DNA of 64,000 nt from Streptomyces chartreusis. Lineage in GTDB: Bacteria > Actinomycetota > Actinomycetes > Streptomycetales > Streptomycetaceae. The notes under the pieces were generated by a model, which did not search any database, was not told the origin of the DNA, and saw nothing but the letters and a program-made list of their open reading frames with translations. Position 1 is the stretch's first letter. Each line of letters begins with the position of its first letter. Below, in pieces: positions 52,028-64,000 of the stretch. The translations under genes and the position numbers were made by a program. The stretch covers positions 2,542,001-2,606,000 of the forward strand of contig NZ_CP023689.1 of NCBI RefSeq assembly GCF_008704715.1, given 5' to 3'.

Positions 52028-53116
52028 CTATGTGTGACGGCACGTGGGCAGGGCGACCCCGGACGGGGCGAAGTCGGCGACCGTCGGTGCGCCCATCAGG
52101 GCCATGACCTCCTCGAACTCGTCGATGAGCAGGCGCAGGACCCCGGCGACACCCTCGGCGCCGGAATGGGCGAGGCCCCAGAGGGCCGGGCGGCCCGTCA
52201 GTACCGCGTCGGCCCCCATGCACAGGGCCTTGGCGATGTCCGCGCCGTGGCGGATCCCGCCGTCCAGGACGACCTGGCATCGGCCGTCGACGGCGGCCAC
52301 GATCTCCGGCAGGCACTCCGGCGCGCTCGTGGCGAAGTCGAGCTGGCGGCCGCCGTGGTTGGAGACGATGAGCCCGGACACGCCGTGCTTGACGGCCAGT
52401 TCGGCGTCCTCGGCGGTCAGAACACCCTTCAACACCAGCGGCAGGGACGTCAGTTCACGCAGCCAGGCGAGGTCGTCCCAGGTGATGGAGGCGTCGAACT
52501 GCTCCATCGAGTGCCTCGCGATGGCGGACTCCCCGTCCCGGCTGCCGTGGGACGCGGCCATGACCTCCGGCGACAGGTTGACCGCGCGGATGCCGGCAGG
52601 GACGGCGAACCCGTTGGCGGCGTCCCGGGGGCGGGACGCGACCCGGGGCGCGTCGACCGTCAGCACCAGCGCGCGGAATCCGGCGGCCTCGGCCCGGTGG
52701 ACGAGGTCCGCGAGCAGATCGCGGCGCTTGAGCCAGTACAGCTGGAGCCACAGGGGCCCGCTCGCCGCCGCCGCGATGTCCTCCAGGGTCCGGCTGGCGA
52801 ACATGCTGACCGTGAGCAGCGCGCCGGCCTCGCCCGCGGCCCGCGCCGTCGCCACCTCGCCCTCCGGGTCGGCGAGCCGGTGATAAGCCATGGGGGCGAT
52901 GCCCAGCGGGGCCGCCAGCCGCGCACCCAGCAGTTCCGTGCCGGGGTCGCAGCGGGAGACGTCGACCAGGCAGCGCGGCCGCAGCCGGATGCGGTCCAGC
53001 GCCTCCCGCCCCGCCGTCAGCATCGACTCGGTGCCGCTGCCGCCCGCGAGGAAGTCCCAGACCGGCCCCGGCAACCGGCCCTTGGCCGCTGCCTCGTACG
53101 TGCGCAGCGTCAGCAC
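52028..53116 (-). CDS. hmo: 4-hydroxymandelate oxidase (FMN alpha-hydroxy-acid oxidase family)
   Basis: A 362-residue FMN-dependent TIM barrel of the glycolate oxidase/mandelate dehydrogenase family. The active-site SNHGGRQLD near 267, PLVLKGVLTAEDA near 245 and VVLDGGIRHGADIAKAL near 292 are intact. In this operon it should oxidise 4-hydroxymandelate made by HmaS to 4-hydroxyphenylglyoxylate, the substrate of HpgT. It starts at a GTG with GGAGAGAACAAG upstream. It is the last gene of the operon, 63 bp after hpgT. Outside this context a lactate or glycolate oxidase would be equally possible. Confidence 0.88.
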   Translation of the reverse strand: MLTLRTYEAAAKGRLPGPVWDFLAGGSGTESMLTAGREALDRIRLRPRCLVDVSRCDPGTELLGARLAAPLGIAPMAYHRLADPEGEVATARAAGEAGALLTVSMFASRTLEDIAAAASGPLWLQLYWLKRRDLLADLVHRAEAAGFRALVLTVDAPRVASRPRDAANGFAVPAGIRAVNLSPEVMAASHGSRDGESAIARHSMEQFDASITWDDLAWLRELTSLPLVLKGVLTAEDAELAVKHGVSGLIVSNHGGRQLDFATSAPECLPEIVAAVDGRCQVVLDGGIRHGADIAKALCMGADAVLTGRPALWGLAHSGAEGVAGVLRLLIDEFEEVMALMGAPTVADFAPSGVALPTCRHT

Positions 53117-53179
53117 CTTGTTCTCTCCGTTCTCCGAAAGGTGGATGGTGGGGTGTGCAGTCGGCCCGGTCGCGTGCCG

Positions 53180-54514
53180 TCAGGCGGCGGTGGCGGTGAG
53201 CTGCGCGGTGATGAAGGCGGCCAGCCTGGCGACGCCCTCGGTGATCTCCTGTGGGCTCTGGGAGCTGCACGACAGCCGCAGCCGGCGGGTGCCGCCCCCG
53301 TCGAGGTGGAAGTCGGACATCGGGGTCCACAGCACGCCGAAGGCGCGTGCGGAGAGTTCCAGGGCCCGGTGGTCGGCGGTGAAGGGGACGTCGACGACGA
53401 GGAAGAAGCCGCCGTCGGGACGGTTCCAGGAGATGCCCAGCTCCGCGCGGCGCCGCGCGGGGAAGTGCCGCTCCAGTTCGTCGAGCAGCGTGTCCATGTT
53501 GGTGCGGTAGTGGGCGATGGTGCGGGCGTTCGCCTCGCGGAGCCGGCAGTCGCTCTCGATGAGCAGTCCGCCGATGACCGCCTGGCTGACGGCGGAGGTG
53601 TTGACCGTGGTCATGCTCTTGATCTTCGACAGCTCGTCCGCGAGCAGTGAGCGCCCGCCGGCGGGGCCGACGACCTCCTGGTCGGCGATGACGTAGCCGA
53701 CGCGGGCTCCGGGCAGCGCCGTCTTGGCGAAGGAGCCGAGATGCACCACCCGCCGGCCGCGGTCGAGGGCCTTCAGTGTGGGGCGGGCCGGGCCGGTGCG
53801 GACGAAGAAGCCGTAGGGGTCGTCCTCCAGGACGAGCAGGTCCTCGTCCGTCGCCACCTCCAGCAGGCGTTCACGGGCCGCGAGGCTCATGCTCCCCCCG
53901 GACGGATTGGCGAAGTCAGGGACCGTGTAGAAGGCCCGCGGGCATTCACCGGCCTCCCGGCTCGAGCGCACCGCCGCGAGCACGGCCTCCGGGTCCGGTC
54001 CGGCGGGGCCCTCGGGTACGGGGCGCACCCGGATGCCCAGCAGCCGGGCCGCGCCCGTGATGCCGACGTAGCAGGGGGAGCTGACCAGCAGAGTGTCCTC
54101 GGGGCGGGCGAAGAGTGCCCGCAGGGTGAGGAGCATGGCCTCCTGGCAGCCGGTCGTCACCACGATCGCCTCCGGCGGGACGTGGATGCCCTCGTCGTTG
54201 GCGACCGTCCTGGCGATCAGTTCGTGGATGAGGCCGTTGGTGCGGCCGTACTGGAACAGCTGGGTGCGTACCCGGTCGCGGGACCAGCAGAGTTCCTTCT
54301 CCAGGTAGGTGGTGTAGGTGAGGAGGTGGCGGGCGAGGTCCTCCGGTTCGAAGTCGCCCTCGGTGGGCCGACCGGGGGCGAAGGAGATGGCGTCGGGGAA
54401 GCGGCCGACGACCTCGTTGAGGAAGTTCATCGCGTCGAGCACCGGGTCGCTGAGCGATCCGTGCAGCTCGGCGAGCGACAGGGCCTGCGGGAGTGGTGGC
54501 GCTGCTCGGGTCAC
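53180..54514 (-). CDS. hpgT: 4-hydroxyphenylglycine aminotransferase
   Basis: A 444-residue fold-type I PLP aminotransferase of the HpgT group. LFQYGRTNGLIHELIA near 85, VTTGCQEAMLL near 118, YTVPDFANPSGGSMS near 197 and the PLP Lys in HLGSFAKTALPGARVGY near 260 are visible. It would transfer an amino group, normally from tyrosine, to 4-hydroxyphenylglyoxylate, giving L-4-hydroxyphenylglycine and regenerating 4-hydroxyphenylpyruvate. The GTG start is four bases after the tyrA stop. Presence with hmaS and hmo makes this assignment much firmer than sequence alone. Confidence 0.9.
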   Translation of the reverse strand: MTRAAPPLPQALSLAELHGSLSDPVLDAMNFLNEVVGRFPDAISFAPGRPTEGDFEPEDLARHLLTYTTYLEKELCWSRDRVRTQLFQYGRTNGLIHELIARTVANDEGIHVPPEAIVVTTGCQEAMLLTLRALFARPEDTLLVSSPCYVGITGAARLLGIRVRPVPEGPAGPDPEAVLAAVRSSREAGECPRAFYTVPDFANPSGGSMSLAARERLLEVATDEDLLVLEDDPYGFFVRTGPARPTLKALDRGRRVVHLGSFAKTALPGARVGYVIADQEVVGPAGGRSLLADELSKIKSMTTVNTSAVSQAVIGGLLIESDCRLREANARTIAHYRTNMDTLLDELERHFPARRRAELGISWNRPDGGFFLVVDVPFTADHRALELSARAFGVLWTPMSDFHLDGGGTRRLRLSCSSQSPQEITEGVARLAAFITAQLTATAA

Positions 54515-54518
54515 CGGT

Positions 54519-55433
54519 TCAGGCCCCTCTCGGCGCGGCCGCGAAGGCCGTACTCAGGTTCGGTCCGGGCGTCGTGCTGCGGGCGGGGATGCGGGCCCGG
54601 CCCTGGATGCCGCGGACCAGGGCCGTGGAGAGCAGCTCCGTGTGGGCGCGCCGCTGTTCCGGCTCCCGTACGGTGCCCAGCCCGCGCAGGGCGTCGACCA
54701 CCTGGTGCAGGTCGAGCGCGAACTCGGCGAGGACGTCGGCGACGGCGACGGCGTTGGAGCCGAGGATGTCGGTCCACAGCTCGGCGCTGCCCGCGGCGAG
54801 GCGGGTCACGTCCTGGAGTCCTTGTCCGGCGAGCCCCAGCTGGGTCTGCTCGCCGTGCAGCAGACGTGCCGCGAGCAGGCTCGACACCAGGTGCGGGGCG
54901 TGCGAGGTGAGGGCGACCGCGCGGTCGTGCTCCGCGTGGGCCATCACGACGGGCCGGGCCCCGCACAACTCGGCCAGCCGACGGGCGCGTTCGACGGCCT
55001 GCACGCGGGTCTCCGGTGAGGGGGTGAGCACCCAGGGCCGGCCTTGGAACAGGTCGTCCTTCGCGGCGAGCGGCCCGGACTGCTCCCGGCCGCCCATGGG
55101 GTGCCCGCCGACGAAACGGGTCAGGTCGCAGCCGGCCCTCGCGGCCTGTCGCTGCGGCAGTTCCTTGACGCTCGCCGCATCGGTGAAGTCGTGCGCGAGG
55201 TCCTGCGTCTGGTGCTCCTTGAGTGCCGCCGCGACGTGCTGCGGCGGCACCGCGAGAACGGCGAGATCGACCGGCTCGCGAGGTCTTCCCGCGATGCCGG
55301 CCCCGAGGTCGGCGGCGATGCGCGCCGCCTCGGGGTTCGTGTCGATCAGATAGGTGGTCACGCCCCGGCCCCGAAGGGCCAGGGCGATCGAGGTACCGAT
55401 CAGGCCGGTTCCGACCACTGCGGCACTGCGCAT
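54519..55433 (-). CDS. tyrA: Prephenate dehydrogenase supplying 4-hydroxyphenylpyruvate
   Basis: A 304-residue TyrA-type NAD+ dehydrogenase with Rossmann motif VVGTGLIGTSIALAL at the N-terminus, GGHPMGGREQSG near 108 (prephenate-binding His) and HDRAVALTSHAPHLVSSLLA near 168. It converts prephenate to 4-hydroxyphenylpyruvate, the starting compound of the hydroxyphenylglycine route. Such a dedicated copy is usual in Hpg antibiotic clusters and indicates secondary metabolism. The ATG overlaps the stop of the PhyH gene by one base (TGATG). Confidence 0.92.
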   Translation of the reverse strand: MRSAAVVGTGLIGTSIALALRGRGVTTYLIDTNPEAARIAADLGAGIAGRPREPVDLAVLAVPPQHVAAALKEHQTQDLAHDFTDAASVKELPQRQAARAGCDLTRFVGGHPMGGREQSGPLAAKDDLFQGRPWVLTPSPETRVQAVERARRLAELCGARPVVMAHAEHDRAVALTSHAPHLVSSLLAARLLHGEQTQLGLAGQGLQDVTRLAAGSAELWTDILGSNAVAVADVLAEFALDLHQVVDALRGLGTVREPEQRRAHTELLSTALVRGIQGRARIPARSTTPGPNLSTAFAAAPRGA

Positions 55434-56350
55434 CAGTGATTGCTCCACAGCAGCGGCAGGAACTCGGGGTCGCTGTAGTCGGGCCTGCCGTCGGCACCGC
55501 GGCGGACGAGGACGTCGTGGTTGTAGGCGACCTTGGTGCCGTCCGAGCGGAAGAAGTCGCGGTAGCGGTTCTCGCCGTCCTGGAGGTGGAAGGAGATGGC
55601 GCGGCGCGGGCGGTCGCTGACGTTGGCACCGCTGCCGTGGTAGGTGCGGCAGTGGTGGAAGTTCACATGCCCCTTGGGGATGAGGACCGGGATCTTGCGG
55701 ACCTCGACGCCGTTGTAGGCGGCGTTCTCCTCCAGCATCACGTCCAGTTCGGAGCGGTCGCGCTCGGCGAAGTGGAGCGAGGTGCTGTCGTTGTCGGCGG
55801 TCTCCTTCCACACGTGGCTGCCGTCGACCATCGTGATGGTGCCCATCTCCTCGTCGCAGTCGTGGAAGGGGATGAACGCGGTCAGCATCCGCTCCGAGGT
55901 GGACGTGGACCAGTAGTGCCGGTCGAAGTGCCAGGGCACGATGTTCGACTGCTCCTGCGCCACCGGCGGCTTGTAGATGAGGGTCGACTGGAACACCCGT
56001 ATCTGCTCGGCCTCGGCGAGCCGTGCGGCCACCGCGCCCAGCAGGGGCTTGCGCAGGATGCGGCCGATGGTGTCGTCCTCGTAGTGGATGTAGTCGTTGT
56101 GCCGCTGCACGGGACCGTGCTCCGGCTCCCAGTACGCCAGCTTGGGCGGGCGGGCCGGCAGGGTACGGTCGCGGTGGCCGCCGTAGAAGCGCTCGCTGGC
56201 GGCCTCCAGCTGCTCGACCTCCTCGTCGGTGAACAGCTTCTTCGACAGGTACCAGCCGTGCTCGACGTAGAAGTCGACGTCCTCGTCGGTCGGAAGGAGG
56301 GCGCGCTCCTCGTCGGTGAGGGTGAAGTTCCGGGAGTCCTGCACAGTCAT
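55433..56350 (-). CDS. Phytanoyl-CoA dioxygenase (PhyH)-family iron oxygenase
   Basis: A 305-residue non-heme Fe(II)/2-oxoglutarate oxygenase. The facial triad is HxD in PWHFDRHYW near 137 and a distal His in RTYHGSGANVSDRPRRA near 237, with an Arg that would bind 2-oxoglutarate. PhyH enzymes of biosynthetic clusters hydroxylate, halogenate or desaturate amino-acid units; the Asp in HxD argues against halogenation. It lies between hmaS and tyrA in one operon, so its substrate is probably the hydroxyphenylglycine unit or the assembled product. It is not part of the known Hpg pathway and is thus a tailoring enzyme candidate. Confidence 0.85.
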   Translation of the reverse strand: MTVQDSRNFTLTDEERALLPTDEDVDFYVEHGWYLSKKLFTDEEVEQLEAASERFYGGHRDRTLPARPPKLAYWEPEHGPVQRHNDYIHYEDDTIGRILRKPLLGAVAARLAEAEQIRVFQSTLIYKPPVAQEQSNIVPWHFDRHYWSTSTSERMLTAFIPFHDCDEEMGTITMVDGSHVWKETADNDSTSLHFAERDRSELDVMLEENAAYNGVEVRKIPVLIPKGHVNFHHCRTYHGSGANVSDRPRRAISFHLQDGENRYRDFFRSDGTKVAYNHDVLVRRGADGRPDYSDPEFLPLLWSNH

Positions 56351-56402
56351 GGTCTTCCTTACGCGTACGTGGATCGATGGACGGTTGCGCGAGGTACCCG
56401 GG

Positions 56403-57467
56403 TCAGGAGGTGGCCTTCTCACGGGCCACGGCCTCGTAGAGCGCCTTGATGTTGCCGCTGCCGAAGGTGCGGGCGCCGTGCCGGTCGATGACCTCCCAGA
56501 AGTAGGTCTTCCGCACGTGCTGGGACTGGGTGAAGATCTGGAACACCTGGCCCCAGTGGTCCTCGTCGATCAGCACGTTGGTCCGGCGCAGGTCCTCGAC
56601 CTGGAGGTTCATGCTGGCGAAGCGCTCCTGGAGCTGGTCGTAGTAGGAGCCGGGAGTCTGGAGGAACTTCACGCCCCGGTTCTCCAGGGTCTGCACGGTG
56701 CCGACGATGTCGTCGCACAGCAGCGCAAGGTGCTGCACACCGGCGCCGCCGTGGCGGGCGAGGAAGGTGTCGATCTGGCCGGGCTCGCGGTCGGCGACCG
56801 GCTCGATCAGCGTGAAGGTCACCTTCCCGGAGGGGCTCTGGACCACCTTGGAGTCCATGGCCTGGGTGCCGACCTCGATGAACTCCTCGAAGATCTGGGA
56901 GAACCCGAAGACCTTCTCGTAGAAGGCGACCGTGGGCCGCAGTTGCCCCGCGGGCAGGCAGATCGCCGCGTGGTCGACGGTGCTCAGGAGGTGCTCGCCC
57001 TCGTCGGGGTCCGGGGCGATGATGTCCATGACGCCGGGCAGGAACTGCTCGCGGTCACCCGAGCGCTGGACGAAGCGGTGCGCGACGTCCCCGAAGCCCA
57101 GGACCGACGCGGTGACGACCTCGGTGCCGTCCTTGCTGTGGACGGCGGGCTGCTCGACCGGGGTGGCACCCCGCTCGACCGCGAGCTCGAAGGCCTTCGT
57201 GGCGTCGGTGACTTCGAAGGCGATGTTGGCGACGCCGTCGCCGTGCCGGGCCACGTACTCGGCGGCCGGGTGGGCGGGGCTCAGGGCGGAGGTGAGGACG
57301 ACCTCGATGCCGCCCTGGCGCAGCAGCAGCGAGCGGTGGTGCGGCTGCCCGGTCTCGGGGCCGGCCTGCCCGCATATTCGGAAACCGAACGCGGTGCACA
57401 GGTAGAAAGCGGACTGCTGGGCGTCCCCGACGTAGAACTCGACGTGGTCTACGGCTCCGATGTCCAT
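56403..57467 (-). CDS. hmaS: 4-hydroxymandelate synthase (HPPD family)
   Basis: A 354-residue two-domain VOC-fold iron enzyme. The ligands are His in VDHAAICL near 167, His in VQHLALLCDD near 244 and Glu in TYFWEVIDRHG near 325. It is homologous to 4-hydroxyphenylpyruvate dioxygenase; HmaS oxidises the benzylic carbon instead of the ring, giving 4-hydroxymandelate. Distinguishing the two by eye is uncertain, but co-occurrence with hmo, hpgT and tyrA strongly supports HmaS. The FSQIFEEFIEVGTQAMDSKV region and SYYDQL are typical of both. Confidence 0.9.
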   Translation of the reverse strand: MDIGAVDHVEFYVGDAQQSAFYLCTAFGFRICGQAGPETGQPHHRSLLLRQGGIEVVLTSALSPAHPAAEYVARHGDGVANIAFEVTDATKAFELAVERGATPVEQPAVHSKDGTEVVTASVLGFGDVAHRFVQRSGDREQFLPGVMDIIAPDPDEGEHLLSTVDHAAICLPAGQLRPTVAFYEKVFGFSQIFEEFIEVGTQAMDSKVVQSPSGKVTFTLIEPVADREPGQIDTFLARHGGAGVQHLALLCDDIVGTVQTLENRGVKFLQTPGSYYDQLQERFASMNLQVEDLRRTNVLIDEDHWGQVFQIFTQSQHVRKTYFWEVIDRHGARTFGSGNIKALYEAVAREKATS

Positions 57468-57511
57468 GCCGTGCCTTTCTTTTTGAATGATCGACAGGTG
57501 TGGCCGGCGCG

Positions 57512-58033
57512 TTATCGGACGGCCGACAATTCTGCTGCATCGATATTCTGCGGCGACCAGAATCCGTAGTCGCCCCGACGGTAGAGCAGTGGTTCACGGG
57601 GGAAGACCGCGGTGCCTTCCACCCGGGCTATGAAGAGCCAGTGGTCGCCCACCTCGATCGCGTTCTCGACTTTGCATTCCGCATAGCTGAGGGCGATGTC
57701 GACGAGCAGTGGCGCGCCTTGGGCGACGGCGGAGGGCCGCCACCGCGTGTTCGCGAACTTGTCCGTGGCCTTGCTCGCGAAGACCTGCGAGGCGACCTGG
57801 CCGGACGTGGCGAGGAAGTTCACCGCGAACGCCTGCGACGACATGATCGCCGGGAGCGTCCGGGAGCCCTTGCCCACGGAGATGAGCAGTGACGGATCAG
57901 CCGCCGAGACCGCGCACACCGCGTTGCTGGTGAATCCGAACGGCTGCCCTTCTCCGTCCATCGCGGTGACGATCGCAATGGGAGTGGGGAAAGAGCCGAA
58001 GAGTTCGCTGAACCGTGCAGAACCTACGTCCAT
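57512..58033 (-). CDS. Flavin reductase, partner of the luciferase-like monooxygenase
   Basis: A 173-residue flavin reductase of the HpaC/ActVB type (FGSFPTPIAIVTAMDGEG, FTSNAVCAVSAADPSLLISV, FAVNFLATSGQVASQVFA). It would make free FMNH2 from NAD(P)H for a two-component monooxygenase; the luciferase-like enzyme at 61811 in the same operon is the obvious client. Its stop lies 44 bp before hmaS. The gene sits 12 bp after the exporter gene. Confidence 0.88.
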   Translation of the reverse strand: MDVGSARFSELFGSFPTPIAIVTAMDGEGQPFGFTSNAVCAVSAADPSLLISVGKGSRTLPAIMSSQAFAVNFLATSGQVASQVFASKATDKFANTRWRPSAVAQGAPLLVDIALSYAECKVENAIEVGDHWLFIARVEGTAVFPREPLLYRRGDYGFWSPQNIDAAELSAVR

Positions 58034-58045
58034 GAAATCCCCCGG

Positions 58046-59290
58046 TTATTCTGCGGTGGCGCCCACGAGAGTTTCCTCCCGCGCGGCTATTGCGAGGCCG
58101 AAAGCACGTACCGTCAGAGGCAGCATGATCGCGCCGAATCCGGTGAGAGCGATCGCGAGCACGAGGACGAGCCGTTGCGGGCTCACGTCGTTCCCGGAGC
58201 CGGCCACGAGAAGACCGGCGATCGGCAGGGCCATCATGTTGAGCAGATAGAAGGGCCCCATCACCTTTCCCAGGTGCTCCTCCGGCAGGACCTTGATCCG
58301 CTGCGTGCGGTTGAAGACGTTGAAGTACGTCACGCCGACCATGGCCGCCACGAACGCCGGGGCGTACAGCAGCATGGAGTCGGCGAACCCGATGAGCAGC
58401 AGGCAGGCGCAGAGAAGGGCGAGGCCGAAGACTCCGAGCATCCGCACGTCGACCCGGCGCAGCACCAGCGGAATCACCAGGAGATTGACGATTCCGAGTA
58501 CGCCGATGCAGATGTTGAGCAGGGCGAACGACGATTCGGGGGCGTGGAACACGCCCGTGACGAGTGCTGCGTTCGCGGCGAGCACCGTGGCGAAGACCAG
58601 GTTGATCGAGAAGTTCAGCGAGGCCAGCAGGACCAGCGGCCTGCTGCCGGCCAGCAGAGACCAGCCCAGGCGGAGTTCGGCGAGGATCTCGCGCGCTCCG
58701 CCGCTGCCGGGCGAGCGCAGCCCGCGCGGCAGCGGCAGCCAGCAGGCCGCCCCCGCGAAGAAGATCGCCGCGGCGCCGCCCAGCAGCCAGACCTTGTCGA
58801 TGAAGGCCACGCCGAGCATGGCGAGGGCGGGGCCGACGGCCATCGCCGACACCTCCATGCTCTGCACCAGGCCCTGGATCTTGGCCAGTTCGGTGCCCTT
58901 GGCGAGCTGCGGCACCACCTTCTCGACGGACATCCGGACCGGCGCCATCAGCAGGGACAGCAGCGCCCCGGAGGTCATCAGGATCGGTGTCAGCAGCGAA
59001 GGTGCGGCCAGGCAGCCGATGAGGGCGCCCGTCAGGACGACACCTCGGCCGGCGGTGACGACGGAGAACAGCCGTGAGCCGCCGTCCCGGTCGGCGAGGA
59101 GGCCCGCGAACGGATACGCCAGCAGGGCGGGCAGCCACTCGATGGCATAGGCGAATCCGAGGGCGGACACCTCTTCGGTGTCCTGGAAGATCAGCAGAGG
59201 AACGGCGAACAACACCATCTGCTCTGCGACGATTCCGAGGAGGACACCGCAGGCGAAAAGCCTTTGGTGCAGCGCTGATCCCTTGGTCAT
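58046..59290 (-). CDS. MFS exporter
   Basis: A 414-residue integral membrane protein with about 12 hydrophobic segments and MFS features (GLLADRDGGSR loop after TM2, PEEHLGKVMGPFYLLNM in the second half). It resembles the drug-efflux/enterobactin-exporter-like MFS_3 group. Its place inside the hydroxyphenylglycine operon suggests it exports the product and gives self-resistance. A TAA stop ends the gene, which is uncommon in this GC-rich DNA. 52 bp separate it from the upstream ATP-grasp gene. Confidence 0.85.
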   Translation of the reverse strand: MTKGSALHQRLFACGVLLGIVAEQMVLFAVPLLIFQDTEEVSALGFAYAIEWLPALLAYPFAGLLADRDGGSRLFSVVTAGRGVVLTGALIGCLAAPSLLTPILMTSGALLSLLMAPVRMSVEKVVPQLAKGTELAKIQGLVQSMEVSAMAVGPALAMLGVAFIDKVWLLGGAAAIFFAGAACWLPLPRGLRSPGSGGAREILAELRLGWSLLAGSRPLVLLASLNFSINLVFATVLAANAALVTGVFHAPESSFALLNICIGVLGIVNLLVIPLVLRRVDVRMLGVFGLALLCACLLLIGFADSMLLYAPAFVAAMVGVTYFNVFNRTQRIKVLPEEHLGKVMGPFYLLNMMALPIAGLLVAGSGNDVSPQRLVLVLAIALTGFGAIMLPLTVRAFGLAIAAREETLVGATAE

Positions 59291-59342
59291 GACTTCGGTC
59301 GCTCCCTTTTGCTCGGCCGGCCGGGGCCCGGCGCGAGACGGC

Positions 59343-60587
59343 TCACTCCGGCACCGGAACGGTCTCGATGCGGAATCCAGCGATGATCTTGCGAATGTCC
59401 GCCTCCACGGCCGCCTCGTCGCCGGTCAGGATGAACCGCCCGCTGTGCACCGCGTCATAGCTGCCGCCCGGCTGGAGCACTTCTCCGGGGCTCGGCACCA
59501 ACTCGCGCCATACCGTGGGGAATTCGTCGCTCATCGGAGTCGAGGTGACGACCTTCGCGGGGAGACCGCCGGGCTTCGGAATGATGAGCCAGCCGCCCGA
59601 GGGGTCATCCGGCATCGGCGGAAGCGTCACCCGTCCCTCGCAGAGGGCGTCCAGCCAGACCTCGAAGAGGTTGACCCCGAAGAGTTTCTCCGTGAGATAC
59701 GGCACCTCGGCCCCGCCGATACGGCCCGCGATCTCCAGGAAGACGAGGTCCTCGTCGGCCGTGACGAAGAGTTCGAGGTGGAACGGCATGGAAGTCATGC
59801 CGAGGGCGGACACGCAGCGCCGGGCGAATTCCTCGATGCGGCCGCGCAGCGGGGATTCCTGGACGACGACCGAACCGAGCGGCTGTCCGCCGGCCTCGAA
59901 GGCGAGGCAGTCGTTGATGTAGCGGGACACCGCCATGAACGGGATGCCGGCGTCCTCGCCCGCGAATCCGTCCACGTGGAAGATGGACCCCTCGATGAAC
60001 TCCTCGAGTTCGTAGTCGTCGGTGTCGATCTGCTCCAGCAGCTTCGAAAGCGTGCCTTCGTCGTCGACGCGGTGCACTCCCATGCTGGCCGCGCCGGACA
60101 CCGGCTTGAGGATCAGCGGGAACCCGGTCGTACGGGCGAAGTCCACCGCGGAATCGGCACCGTCGCAGGAGGCGAACCGGGGTACCCGGACGCCGGCTTC
60201 CGCGACCAGTTCCTTCATCCTCAGCTTGTTGCGGTAGACCGCGACGTCCTCGGGGCGCGGGCCGGGAATGCCGAGCGCCTCGCGCACCTCGGCCGCGATG
60301 CCGAGCGTGAACTCGGAGACGGCGATGAGCCGGTCGACCGGACCGACCTCGTCCGCGACCCCCCGGACCGCTCCGCACAGCGCGTCGAAGTCGTTGACGT
60401 CGCCGACCTCGACGAGCGCGGCGATGTGCGCGGGGTCCGCGAGGACGCCGGTGGCGCCGACCGGGTCGACCACGTAGCTGACGCGGTGCCGCTCATGGTC
60501 GATGAGTTCCTCGAAGCGGCCGAGGGAGAAGTCCCAGCGCTGTCCGTCGGGGAACCTGGGCCAGCGGTTGACGACAACAATGTGCAC
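59343..60587 (-). CDS. ATP-grasp carboxylate-amine ligase (1)
   Basis: A 414-residue ATP-grasp enzyme. The N-terminal pre-grasp domain starts HIVVVNRWPRFPDGQRW. The ATP-binding part has FPLILKPVSGAASMGVHRV near 155, YELEEFIEGSIFHVDGF near 190 and the Mg-binding LEIAGRIGGAEVPYL near 275. A C-terminal ~90-residue domain follows. Such ligases form amide bonds between an acyl phosphate and an amine, building dipeptides without NRPS. It starts at a GTG three bases after the stop of the second ligase, with GGAGGAG upstream. Substrates unknown; Hpg is the natural candidate for one partner. Confidence 0.88.
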   Translation of the reverse strand: MHIVVVNRWPRFPDGQRWDFSLGRFEELIDHERHRVSYVVDPVGATGVLADPAHIAALVEVGDVNDFDALCGAVRGVADEVGPVDRLIAVSEFTLGIAAEVREALGIPGPRPEDVAVYRNKLRMKELVAEAGVRVPRFASCDGADSAVDFARTTGFPLILKPVSGAASMGVHRVDDEGTLSKLLEQIDTDDYELEEFIEGSIFHVDGFAGEDAGIPFMAVSRYINDCLAFEAGGQPLGSVVVQESPLRGRIEEFARRCVSALGMTSMPFHLELFVTADEDLVFLEIAGRIGGAEVPYLTEKLFGVNLFEVWLDALCEGRVTLPPMPDDPSGGWLIIPKPGGLPAKVVTSTPMSDEFPTVWRELVPSPGEVLQPGGSYDAVHSGRFILTGDEAAVEADIRKIIAGFRIETVPVPE

Positions 60588-60590
60588 GGG

Positions 60591-61814
60591 TCACTCCTCC
60601 GTCGCCGCGGGAACCGTCTTGATCGACAGGGTTCGCCGGGTGAACTCGATTGCTTCTTCCAGCTCCTGGGGCGAGTCGGCGGCGAGCACCGCGTACGCGG
60701 TCCGCTGGAGTGACGAGGAAGCGGGGCCGACGGTGTCGCCGACCGCCACCCTGAACGCGGCGTCCACGACGGCGGGGTGCTCCCGGACCTCGTCCAGCCC
60801 GTCCAGGGCGATGACCTCGCCGGGGTCGGAGACCAAGAAGAGGCTGGCGGCGTGCCGTACCGGCCCCTGCGGCGGCGGTGGCAGTTCGGCGCCGACGGCG
60901 AGCCGCACGACCATCTCGTGCCAGTCGATCCCGTACGCCAGGGAGCAGAGCTCCATGATGTGGTCGCCGGGCGTGCGGACCGCCACCTCCATCACGGCCG
61001 GCCCCGCACTCGTCAGCCGGAACTCCAGGTGGACGATTCCGGTGCGCATCCCGATGGCGGTCAGGACCGAGCGGCCGAGTTCGGCGACCCGTTCGGCGTC
61101 CGCCGCCGGCAGGGGCGCCGCGACCCGGTGGGCGAGCTCGATGAAGCGGGGCGGGCCCGTGGTGGTCTTGGCGGTCAGGTTCGCGAACCAGATCTCGCCG
61201 TCCCGGACCAGGGCCTCCCAGCTGTACTCGGGTCCCTCCAGCGCGCTCTCCACCAGCAGCGGCCGTTCCGCGGCCCGGCGGTGTGCGGCATCGTCGAAGG
61301 CGGCCGCGTCGGCCACCAGTTCGACGCCGGCGCTGCCGGCCGACGACAGCGGCTTCACCACCACGGGCAGCCGGGCGCCGGCCCACTCGGCCGAGGCCGG
61401 CAGGTCGTCGGTCAGGAGGTACTCGGGCTGGCCGATGCCGTGGGCGCGGAAGCGTCCTCGCTGGAGTGCCTTGTTCCGGGAGACGACGGCCGCTTGGAGG
61501 GACGGTCCGGGCAGTGCGAAGCGGTCCTGGGCCATGGCGGCGCCGAGGACGTGCGACTCGGTGAACGCGAGGATCCCGTCCGGCCGGCTCTCCAGCGCGG
61601 CCGCGTGGACGGTCTCGGCCCACAGCTCGTCCAGCGAGCCGTACCTGCCCCCGCTCGGCTCGACGGCGTCGACCAGGTCCTCGATCGCGCCGGCCCAGTC
61701 CCGCGCCTCGATGGCGCGCACCCGCAGGCCGAGTCGCCGGGCGGCCGCCACGTACGGGCGGCCCATCATCCCGACGCCGACGAGCAGCAGCTCCCGCTCA
61801 CCGTGCTCGCTCAT
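60591..61814 (-). CDS. ATP-grasp carboxylate-amine ligase (2)
   Basis: A 407-residue ATP-grasp enzyme with LLLVGVGMMGRPYVAAARRL at the N-terminus, LPVVVKPLSSAGSAGVELV near 145, PLLVESALEGPEYSWEALV near 180 and EVAVRTPGDHIMELCSLAYG near 275 carrying the metal ligands. It differs clearly from the neighbours, so three ligases with distinct specificities are present rather than recent duplicates. The ATG at 61814 overlaps the stop of the luciferase-like gene (ATGA). Confidence 0.88.
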   Translation of the reverse strand: MSEHGERELLLVGVGMMGRPYVAAARRLGLRVRAIEARDWAGAIEDLVDAVEPSGGRYGSLDELWAETVHAAALESRPDGILAFTESHVLGAAMAQDRFALPGPSLQAAVVSRNKALQRGRFRAHGIGQPEYLLTDDLPASAEWAGARLPVVVKPLSSAGSAGVELVADAAAFDDAAHRRAAERPLLVESALEGPEYSWEALVRDGEIWFANLTAKTTTGPPRFIELAHRVAAPLPAADAERVAELGRSVLTAIGMRTGIVHLEFRLTSAGPAVMEVAVRTPGDHIMELCSLAYGIDWHEMVVRLAVGAELPPPPQGPVRHAASLFLVSDPGEVIALDGLDEVREHPAVVDAAFRVAVGDTVGPASSSLQRTAYAVLAADSPQELEEAIEFTRRTLSIKTVPAATEE

Positions 61815-62869
61815 GACGACTGCTCTTCGAGGCGCCGGATCAGCGGCTCGACGTTGGTGAAGAAGTTCCGCATCTCGTCGCGGGTCGGCCAGCCGGAGAA
61901 GATGAACTCGCTGATGCCCGCGGCCTTGTAGCTGTGGATGTACGTCGCCACTTCCTCGAAGCTGCCGACGATGCACAGCGCCGGGCCGCCGCGGTAGGCG
62001 ACGGCGCCGGTCCAGATGTACGGCGACAGCCACTCGTCGGCCGCTTCGTCGGCGAGCTTGTAGGAGGACTTCACCGCCTCGGAGTCGGTGGTGTTCACCC
62101 ACTGGCGGATCCACGCGGCGTGGTCCTCGTCCGGGTTGCGCATGAGGTGGGCGAGCTCCGCCACCGCTTCCTCGCGGGTGGGCCGGGCCAGCACATGCAT
62201 CCGGGTGCCCACCCGGCAGCCCTTGTCGATCAGGGGCCGGGCCGCCTCGGCGATCCCCTCGGGGGTGTCGCCGTAGCGCAGCCAGCAGTCGCCGGAGGCC
62301 AGCGCCGTCTGCTGGGCCACGGCGGAGGCACCGCTGATGTAGATCTCGGGCCTGCCGCCGTCCTTGTGGCCGAGGCCCAGCGCCGCGTCCTTGACGGTGT
62401 AGTGGTGGCCGTCGTAGCTCAGCGGCGACTCGCCCTCCCAGAGGCCGCGGATGACCTCGAGGAACTCGTTGCAGCGCGCGTAGCGCTCGTCGTGGCTGAG
62501 GAAGTCGCCGTAACCGGCCTGCTCCGCGGGGGAGATGCCGGAGACGATGTTGAGCGAGATGCGTCCGTCCGACATCCAGGACAGCGTGTTGACGACCTGC
62601 GCGAACAGGGTCGGCGACATCAGGCCGGGACGGTAGGCGAGCATGAACTTGACGCGTTCGGTCACCTGCGAGAGCGCGCCGAGCACCGGCAGCGGGTCGG
62701 GCAGGTAGTTGGAGATGCCGAACAGCAGGCTGTCGACGCCGAGTTCCTCGGCCTCCTGGACGAAGTCGACGACCTCGCCCATGTCGAGCTTGCCGATCTT
62801 GTACGTGTCGGTCGGCGTCGACTGCCCCGTGTCGGGCGGCGAGCACCAGTGAAAGCGCAGAGCGTCCAT
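61811..62869 (-). CDS. FMNH2-dependent luciferase-like monooxygenase (SsuD-like)
   Basis: A 352-residue TIM-barrel monooxygenase resembling alkanesulfonate monooxygenase (RFHWCSPP start, FMLAYRPGLMSPTLFAQVVN, RISLNIVSGISPAEQAGYGD, FLSHDERYARCNEFLEVIRG, PEIYISGASAVAQQTA). With the flavin reductase at 57512 it makes a two-component system. A sulfonatase role is unlikely in this operon. SsuD-type enzymes in natural-product clusters perform N-oxygenation, oxidative decarboxylation or ring oxidation. Its placement between two ligase genes suggests that it modifies the amino-acid unit or the coupled peptide. Confidence 0.88.
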   Translation of the reverse strand: MDALRFHWCSPPDTGQSTPTDTYKIGKLDMGEVVDFVQEAEELGVDSLLFGISNYLPDPLPVLGALSQVTERVKFMLAYRPGLMSPTLFAQVVNTLSWMSDGRISLNIVSGISPAEQAGYGDFLSHDERYARCNEFLEVIRGLWEGESPLSYDGHHYTVKDAALGLGHKDGGRPEIYISGASAVAQQTALASGDCWLRYGDTPEGIAEAARPLIDKGCRVGTRMHVLARPTREEAVAELAHLMRNPDEDHAAWIRQWVNTTDSEAVKSSYKLADEAADEWLSPYIWTGAVAYRGGPALCIVGSFEEVATYIHSYKAAGISEFIFSGWPTRDEMRNFFTNVEPLIRRLEEQSS

Positions 62870-62889
62870 GTTGAGTGTTCCCTTTCAGT

Positions 62890-64000
62890 TCAGGCGCCGA
62901 GAACGCGCACCCGGTCACCGATCTCGGACCAGCGTTCGTGGGCCTCTTCGGGGGAGTCCGCGATGAACACGACGGCGGCGACCCGGCAGCTGTAGTCCGC
63001 CTCGTCCGTCTTGATCCCGGCACCCGGCTCGATGAGGACGGGGCTCGCGACGACCCACGGCTCGGCCGTCAGTTCCTCCCAGCCGTCGAGCCGTGCGTAC
63101 GAACCGGCTCCGCCCGCGGTCAGGAAGCGGATTCCGGCGGCCTTGGCGGCGGGCTCGCGATGCGCCTGCGCGCTCACCGGGTCGGCGCCGGTGAGGTCCG
63201 CGAGGACCCGGCCGGGCAGCACGAGGCCGGTGGCCATCTCCATGAGTTCGGTGATCTTGTCCCCGGGCAGCCGCGCGGCGACCTCCATGAGGACCGGGCG
63301 GCCCTCGTCGAGGCGCAGCTCGCAGTGGAACGGCCCCGCCGTGATCCCGACGGCCCTGACGACGTCGGTGGCGTACGAGGCCATCGCGTCGCGGGCGCCG
63401 TCGTCGACCGGGGCCGGGGTGAGGTGTCCGAGCTCCAGGAACCGGGGCTCGGGGCCGAGCAGTTTGCGGGTGACGGCCACGACGACGACCTCGCCGTCGT
63501 GCACATAGCCGTCGGCGCTGTACTCCGCGCCGGGCACGTACTGTTCGAGGATCGCGTCGGTGGTCAGCGCCCGGTCGAACTCGAGGCCCTCCTCGGCGTG
63601 CATCGCGGCCAGCGCGGCGCGCGCCTCCTCGACGGTGTCGACGCGGGACACATGGACGCTGCCGCCGGAGTCGACCGGCTTGATGACGGCGGGGAAGCCC
63701 ACGTACGCGCAGGCGTCGTCGATCTCCTTCGGATCGCCGACCACGATGAACTTCGGAACCTCAAGTCCGGCCGCGGCCACCGCCTCGCGCATGCTCGCCT
63801 TGTGGCGGACCTTGTCGACGGCGTCGAGGTCCAGGCCGGACAGCCCGAGGAGGGCCGACAGCCGTGCGGCGGCCGGCACGTAGTACTCGCCGCCGGCGAC
63901 GACGGCGTGGATGGGGTTCCGCCCGTGGGCACGCTCGACGGCCGCCTCCAGGGCAGCGTTGTCATTGGTGTCCACCGTGAGTATCTCCGTGGCCAGCGAG
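62890..64000 (-). CDS. ATP-grasp carboxylate-amine ligase (3), N-terminus beyond the window
   Basis: At least 369 residues are inside; the frame is open to the right edge. VVAGGEYYVPAAARLSALLGL, FPAVIKPVDSGGSVHVSRV, LEQYVPGAEYSADGYV and LMEVAARLPGDKITELMEMA give the ATP-grasp pattern with the EVAARLPG metal site. A GTG at 63975 could start a shorter protein, but the preceding residues (SLATEILT before VDTNDN) look like the middle of the pre-grasp domain, so the gene most probably continues. It is the most upstream visible gene of the operon, 20 bp before the luciferase-like gene. Confidence 0.85.
   Translation of the reverse strand, partial: SLATEILTVDTNDNAALEAAVERAHGRNPIHAVVAGGEYYVPAAARLSALLGLSGLDLDAVDKVRHKASMREAVAAAGLEVPKFIVVGDPKEIDDACAYVGFPAVIKPVDSGGSVHVSRVDTVEEARAALAAMHAEEGLEFDRALTTDAILEQYVPGAEYSADGYVHDGEVVVVAVTRKLLGPEPRFLELGHLTPAPVDDGARDAMASYATDVVRAVGITAGPFHCELRLDEGRPVLMEVAARLPGDKITELMEMATGLVLPGRVLADLTGADPVSAQAHREPAAKAAGIRFLTAGGAGSYARLDGWEELTAEPWVVASPVLIEPGAGIKTDEADYSCRVAAVVFIADSPEEAHERWSEIGDRVRVLGA

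Follow-up and report, generated by a model that had tools for sequence, protein, structure and literature searches.

What is 4-hydroxyphenylglycine (Hpg) made for in an operon that holds the genes for its biosynthesis together with three ATP-grasp ligases? Among the key residues of clinical antibiotics, Hpg is normally used by giant assembly-line enzymes, the nonribosomal peptide synthetases (NRPSs). The operon lies in the 9.9-Mb single-contig genome of Streptomyces chartreusis, at the right edge of a stretch of 64,000 nucleotides (bases 2542001-2606000; here called the window), which was read 59 kb further to the right with the window numbering kept. The evidence below makes it probable that this operon is a dedicated NRPS-free pathway that ligates L-Hpg, probably oxidized by a PhyH-family oxygenase, into a short oxidized oligopeptide.

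The Hpg route and the three ATP-grasp ligases

The operon comprises 11 minus-strand genes, from hmo at 52028 to the start of lig1, 134 bases beyond the window. In the order of transcription, they are lig1, luc, lig2, lig3, a major facilitator superfamily (MFS) exporter gene, a flavin reductase gene, hmaS, phyH, tyrA, hpgT, and hmo. All 11 frames are open, the intergenic spacing ranges from -20 to +63 nucleotides, most of the genes have plausible ribosome-binding sites, and each family call is backed by Pfam or NCBIfam models. An earlier note on this DNA had described one 11-gene operon of these families, and the open frames, near contiguity, family models, and synteny bear this out. Its gene list stands, with two boundaries mended: lig1 starts at 64134, outside the window, and TyrA spans 54519-55433 rather than 54511-55629.

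TyrA (NF005112, 359 bits, with a cutoff of 294) is a predicted prephenate dehydrogenase that would convert prephenate to 4-hydroxyphenylpyruvate, from which the 4-hydroxymandelate synthase HmaS (56403-57467) would form 4-hydroxymandelate. The flavin mononucleotide (FMN)-dependent 4-hydroxymandelate oxidase Hmo (52028-53116; PF01070, E = 7e-129) would oxidize this to 4-hydroxyphenylglyoxylate, and the pyridoxal phosphate-dependent 4-hydroxyphenylglycine aminotransferase HpgT (53180-54514; PF00155, E = 3e-29) would aminate the latter to L-Hpg. These reaction steps are supported by homology and active-site residues. The nearest solved chain of HmaS is 2R5V (PCZA361.1; 343 bits), which we take to be a hydroxymandelate synthase, whereas HPPD 1T47 scores 254 bits. 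The HmaS motif GNIKALYEAV has Ile at a position where the canonical HPPD of the host genome has Phe, a difference that distinguishes hydroxymandelate synthase from HPPD activity, and the His/His/Glu triad of the metal site is intact. HmaS also exceeds the cutoff of the HPPD family (TIGR01263), so automatic annotation would label it as HPPD; its residues support its assignment as a hydroxymandelate synthase. The 4-hydroxymandelate oxidase 5ZZP is among the best solved relatives of Hmo (E = 2e-91), and HpgT was assigned through 58% identical homologs from Hpg-NRPS clusters, which lie on plasmids beside HmaS-like, MbtH, and NRPS genes. At the sequence level, the clustered TyrA, HmaS (not HPPD), Hmo, and HpgT place the operon among the L-Hpg pathways.

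The three ligases all contain PF13535, and two of them, lig1 and lig2, also have an LAL_C2 domain (PF18603). lig1 (62890-64000 and on to 64134; PF13535, E = 1e-25; PF18603, E = 1e-7) is the first biosynthetic gene and has a GTG start preceded by the ribosome-binding site GAGGAAT. lig2 (60591-61814) is related to the solved L-amino acid ligases 3VOT and 4WD3, and lig3 (59343-60587) has 4WD3 as its closest solved relative (E = 4e-21). The nearest solved chains of the three taken together are 3VOT, 4WD3, and BacD, all of them L-amino acid ligases. PF13535 and this similarity make the three proteins members of the ATP-grasp L-amino acid ligase family, with a predicted peptide-bond-forming activity. 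They are mutually divergent, with about 24 to 31% identity in cross-matches, and no family model for the bacilysin BacD, tabtoxin TabS, rhizocticin, or dapdiamide DdaF ligases reached its cutoff on any of them. The ligases would convert a carboxylate to an acyl phosphate and then couple between one and three additional units to Hpg. A non-peptide product, in which they form amides with non-amino-acid partners or activate carboxylates for another reaction, is conceivable, since non-alpha-amino carboxylates are substrates of ATP-grasp enzymes from other families (PMC12568646); it is judged unlikely, as L-amino acid dipeptide ligases are the closest relatives of all three and two carry LAL_C2.

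The association of these ligases with Hpg genes is conserved and narrow. Synteny extends over all 11 genes in Streptomyces sp. uw30, Streptomyces djakartensis, and genome G285, with protein identities of 79 to 96%. A fourth relative, Streptomyces monashensis (locus L083), has the operon without lig2 and with the MFS gene reduced to its last 55 residues, and Streptomyces sp. H27-S2 retains a lone 95-residue lig1 remnant (L042, 9896-10288). The operon flanks differ among species, which indicates that lig1 to hmo is the unit. In a sample of 393 Streptomyces genomes, 69 had HmaS-like genes at the threshold used, and 65 HmaS loci were examined. ATP-grasp ligases occur near HmaS in five of the 65, exclusively the five orthologous operons, and most of the other HmaS loci have Hpg genes linked to NRPS or carrier-protein machinery. 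Homologs of lig1 with at least 78% identity were likewise found in the five Hpg operons only, the next best in these genomes reaching 60%. As it belongs to all five operons and its homologs elsewhere in the searched genomes do not exceed 60%, lig1 is the likeliest Hpg-specific ligase. The full route from prephenate to L-Hpg beside three ATP-grasp ligases, as first proposed from the window, is thus upheld by sequence, rightward extension, synteny in four species, and the 65-locus survey.

Homologs of lig2, at 50 to 54% identity, also occur in a separate type of ATP-grasp cluster (L049-L056 and L062). This type, of which L054 was read in detail, also has an aminodeoxychorismate-synthase-like enzyme, a PapC-like dehydrogenase, and two-domain ATP-grasps.

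NRPS loci and the right flank

A condensation-domain profile was built from the host genome's own NRPS, and it detected the positive control, L089. With this profile, no condensation domain was found in the window, in the 59-kb rightward extension, or in the stretches of about 48 to 54 kb that contain the operon in the four other Streptomyces species, where the flanks reach roughly 15 to 28 kb on each side. The earlier note had called the pathway NRPS-free and had named an NRPS just outside the window as the finding that would contradict it; the rightward extension revealed none and contained a small open reading frame (ORF), a LuxR-type regulator, and a modular polyketide synthase (PKS) instead. 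Among 51 more distant HmaS loci, about half have a condensation domain within the stretch read; in the remaining loci, this stretch is about 10 kb on each side or ends with the contig and may be too short for NRPS detection.

The operon might still feed Hpg to an NRPS acting in trans, with the ATP-grasps unrelated, since the host genome has several NRPS loci, one of them beside Hpg genes. However, this locus, at 335-380 kb (L088-L090), has its own complete set of tyrA, hpgT, hmaS, and hmo, which is 50 to 53% identical to the operon set and lies beside a large NRPS. The operon's set is therefore not the supplier of that NRPS, and the genome appears to run two Hpg routes, one per machinery. In addition, the 11 genes stay together in other species with no condensation domain within the flanks searched, and the link to ATP-grasps is a strict feature of this operon. 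Supply of an NRPS elsewhere is accordingly regarded as highly unlikely, and it counts among the points that weigh against a dedicated pathway. Another is that what luc, PhyH, and the three ligases act on is inferred. A further one is the state of the operon in S. monashensis, from which lig2 and the bulk of the MFS gene are missing, so that lig2 can be dispensed with or this copy is in decay. NRPS-free ligation of Hpg, as the earlier note had it, remains the preferred reading, while its figure of two or three other units is not fixed, given the lack of lig2 in S. monashensis.

Directly upstream of lig1 and first in the operon direction is a 68-amino-acid ORF (64190-64396) with a good ribosome-binding site and a C-terminal DVGWN motif. 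Pheganomycin-type PGM1 systems of Streptomyces combine an aryl-glycine unit, made by a different route, with an ATP-grasp peptide ligase. In a hybrid of this kind, a ligase of the operon would add Hpg to the N terminus of a ribosomal peptide with the 68-amino-acid ORF as the precursor. The position of the ORF, its ribosome-binding site, and the conservation of DVGWN, which is repeated in L050 and L052, speak for such a role. However, unlike in pheganomycin-type systems, no precursor peptide is common to all five operons: the ORF is absent from those of G285 and S. djakartensis, which hold all 11 enzymes, and these two genomes also lack close homologs of the LuxR regulator linked to it. The small ORF tracks the LuxR gene, also in clusters without Hpg genes. 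The ribosomal hybrid is regarded as about as improbable as supply of a distant NRPS, and the 68-amino-acid ORF was rejected as the precursor of a ribosomally synthesized peptide made by the operon, as it is missing from two complete operons.

The LuxR-type gene (64593-65444) contains one TTA codon and is divergent from the small ORF. A small ORF with the motif D[VI]GWN lies within about 0.4 kb of the LuxR gene in all 12 stretches with close luxR homologs (the own locus, L043, L083/L041 from one species, L050-L056, and L062). Up to three or four D[VI]GWN repeats are present in L050 and L052, and some of the small ORFs have a signal-peptide-like N terminus. No independent match to such an ORF was found in 2.2 Mb of other sequence, a non-random background collected for different purposes, and the motif string was found in no relevant open-access paper. 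The two genes are a candidate peptide-signal and regulator pair of ATP-grasp clusters. As the G285 and S. djakartensis operons lack both, neither seems to be needed for biosynthesis. The pair is also present in most of the clusters of the L049-L056 and L062 type.

Further to the right, at 67462-107749, a reading by eye identified a modular PKS with a terminal reductase domain, amine oxidases, an imine-reductase-like protein, an aminotransferase, and SARP regulators; the region looks like a polyketide alkaloid cluster. The separation of only about 3 kb would allow the operon to be half of a hybrid with the modular PKS part of this cluster, at 67-91 kb. However, no PKS was detected in the operon flanks of the four other species, and accessory genes of its own accompany the PKS. 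The PKS was therefore rejected as part of the operon, and a hybrid is likewise regarded as highly unlikely.

The proposed oxidative core and its relatives

The luc product (61811-62869; PF00296, E = 1e-50) is an SsuD-like, luciferase-family monooxygenase predicted to depend on reduced FMN (FMNH2), for which the flavin reductase (57512-58033; PF01613, E = 1e-34) is the likely supplier. SsuD is the closest solved relative family of luc, and the two have in common a reductase partner and the equivalents of Arg226 and Arg297, which are kept in all 14 members of the luc family alignment. Of the other residues with roles in SsuD, Cys54, Trp196, and Tyr331 are replaced in all of these 14 members. With these replacements and a score of 187 bits against the SsuD equivalog cutoff of 518 bits, luc was rejected as an alkanesulfonate monooxygenase. 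An SsuD-like mode of action, in which FMNH2 and O2 oxidize an anionic substrate, is possible, and the substrate is likely to be anionic. Sulfite chemistry, a candidate prompted by a TauE-type exporter in L075 and L077, was also rejected, as TauE was not seen at the other scanned luc loci.

The PhyH-family protein (55433-56350; PF05721, E = 1e-22) is a predicted Fe(II)/2-oxoglutarate oxygenase. Its ORF extends to 56422, and its start is probably the internal ATG at 56350, the start position of its relatives. The motif WHFD...TYHG...RRA is conserved in 10 aligned members. PhyH accompanies the Hpg genes in 19 of the 65 HmaS loci and fits best as a member of the Hpg module rather than of the ligase core. 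Because of this linkage, it is predicted to oxidize Hpg or an intermediate of the Hpg route. Nine Streptomyces clusters (L099-L107) pair Hpg genes with PhyH. L100, the only one of the nine read in detail, also encodes a nitrosuccinate lyase (692 bits, cutoff 650), a flavoprotein, an AvaA6-like diazotase, a ketosynthase, a carrier protein, and an adenylation enzyme; clusters of this type may encode a pathway that converts an Hpg-type substrate to a diazo or N-N compound.

A search with luc returned homologs in 13 genomes. Outside the Hpg operons, luc and MFS genes adjoin, together with lig3 homologs of 61 to 63% identity in seven loci without Hpg genes (L046 and L075-L080) and with more distant ATP-grasps in L081 and L082. 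One of the seven, L075 (4.296-4.316 Mb), is a second luc-MFS-lig3 cassette in the host genome, at 4.305 Mb. L046 contains PLP synthase and ornithine-cyclodeaminase-like genes, as for diaminopropionate, and a heme-oxygenase-like oxidase. L079, which was read, encodes glutamate mutase E, a B12-binding protein, and an asparagine-synthetase-A-like enzyme, and L076, L078, and L080 are alike by gene order and size, which suggests a 3-methylaspartate or methylasparagine unit; L081 has glutamate mutase E with a desaturase. L075 and L077 carry the TauE-type sulfite exporter and a PP-loop-like protein of about 500 amino acids. This protein (motif GGGKDS; L075-L080) belongs to no family in Pfam or NCBIfam and had no match in a PDB search. 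A 47% luc homolog on a Pseudoalteromonas xiamenensis plasmid (L119) lies beside two ATP-grasps and an NAD(P)H-dependent oxidoreductase, and this locus also carries DUF6421, a branched-chain transaminase, and DAHP synthase/chorismate mutase.

Linkage suggests two parts of the operon, an Hpg module that includes PhyH and probably lig1, and a core with an oxidative role formed by luc, MFS, lig3, and the reductase. In this arrangement, lig3 would work with the luc core, luc and the reductase would oxidize a unit common to the non-Hpg clusters, and the MFS protein (58046-59290; PF07690, E = 2e-19) would export the product, a short oxidized peptide-like metabolite. The earlier note had proposed N- or C-oxidation; the oxygenases are present as described, and Hpg is not an obvious substrate of luc, as the luc-MFS-lig3 set recurs without Hpg genes. 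A more tentative proposal, possible and short of probable, is that these clusters form a modular ATP-grasp peptide class. Its fixed core of SsuD-like monooxygenase, MFS, lig3, and usually a flavin reductase would make a common oxidized warhead, and swap-in modules would provide the variable residue (Hpg with PhyH here, diaminopropionate in L046, and 3-methylaspartate in L076-L081), with luc performing chemistry for which its family is not known, such as turning a ligated amino acid into an aldehyde or N-oxide.

Comparison with known pathways

The L-Hpg pathways of the NRPS type (glycopeptide, calcium-dependent antibiotic, and nocardicin) have the same TyrA, HmaS, Hmo, and HpgT, about 47 to 60% identical to the operon set. 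Unlike those clusters, the operon has no NRPS, carrier protein, or MbtH and has three ATP-grasp ligases and an extra PhyH instead. The bacilysin (BacD), tabtoxin (TabS), rhizocticin, and dapdiamide (DdaF) pathways likewise have stand-alone enzymes of the L-amino acid ligase type, an oxygenase, and an MFS exporter, but the operon differs from them in its Hpg building block, its three ligases, and its SsuD-like two-component monooxygenase. The earlier note could name no described cluster with this gene set, and a search of the open-access literature for ATP-grasp ligases with Hpg, 4-hydroxymandelate synthase, luciferase-like monooxygenase, methylaspartate, or PhyH similarly gave no match. Within the open-access literature searched, the combination has no precedent, and its parts are of known kinds.

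The production of Hpg peptides without NRPSs is an active aim (PMC13338154), and small stand-alone ligases that accept Hpg, if this is true of those described here, would be useful catalysts. The relatives of the operon point to swap-in amino acid modules around one shared oxidative core.

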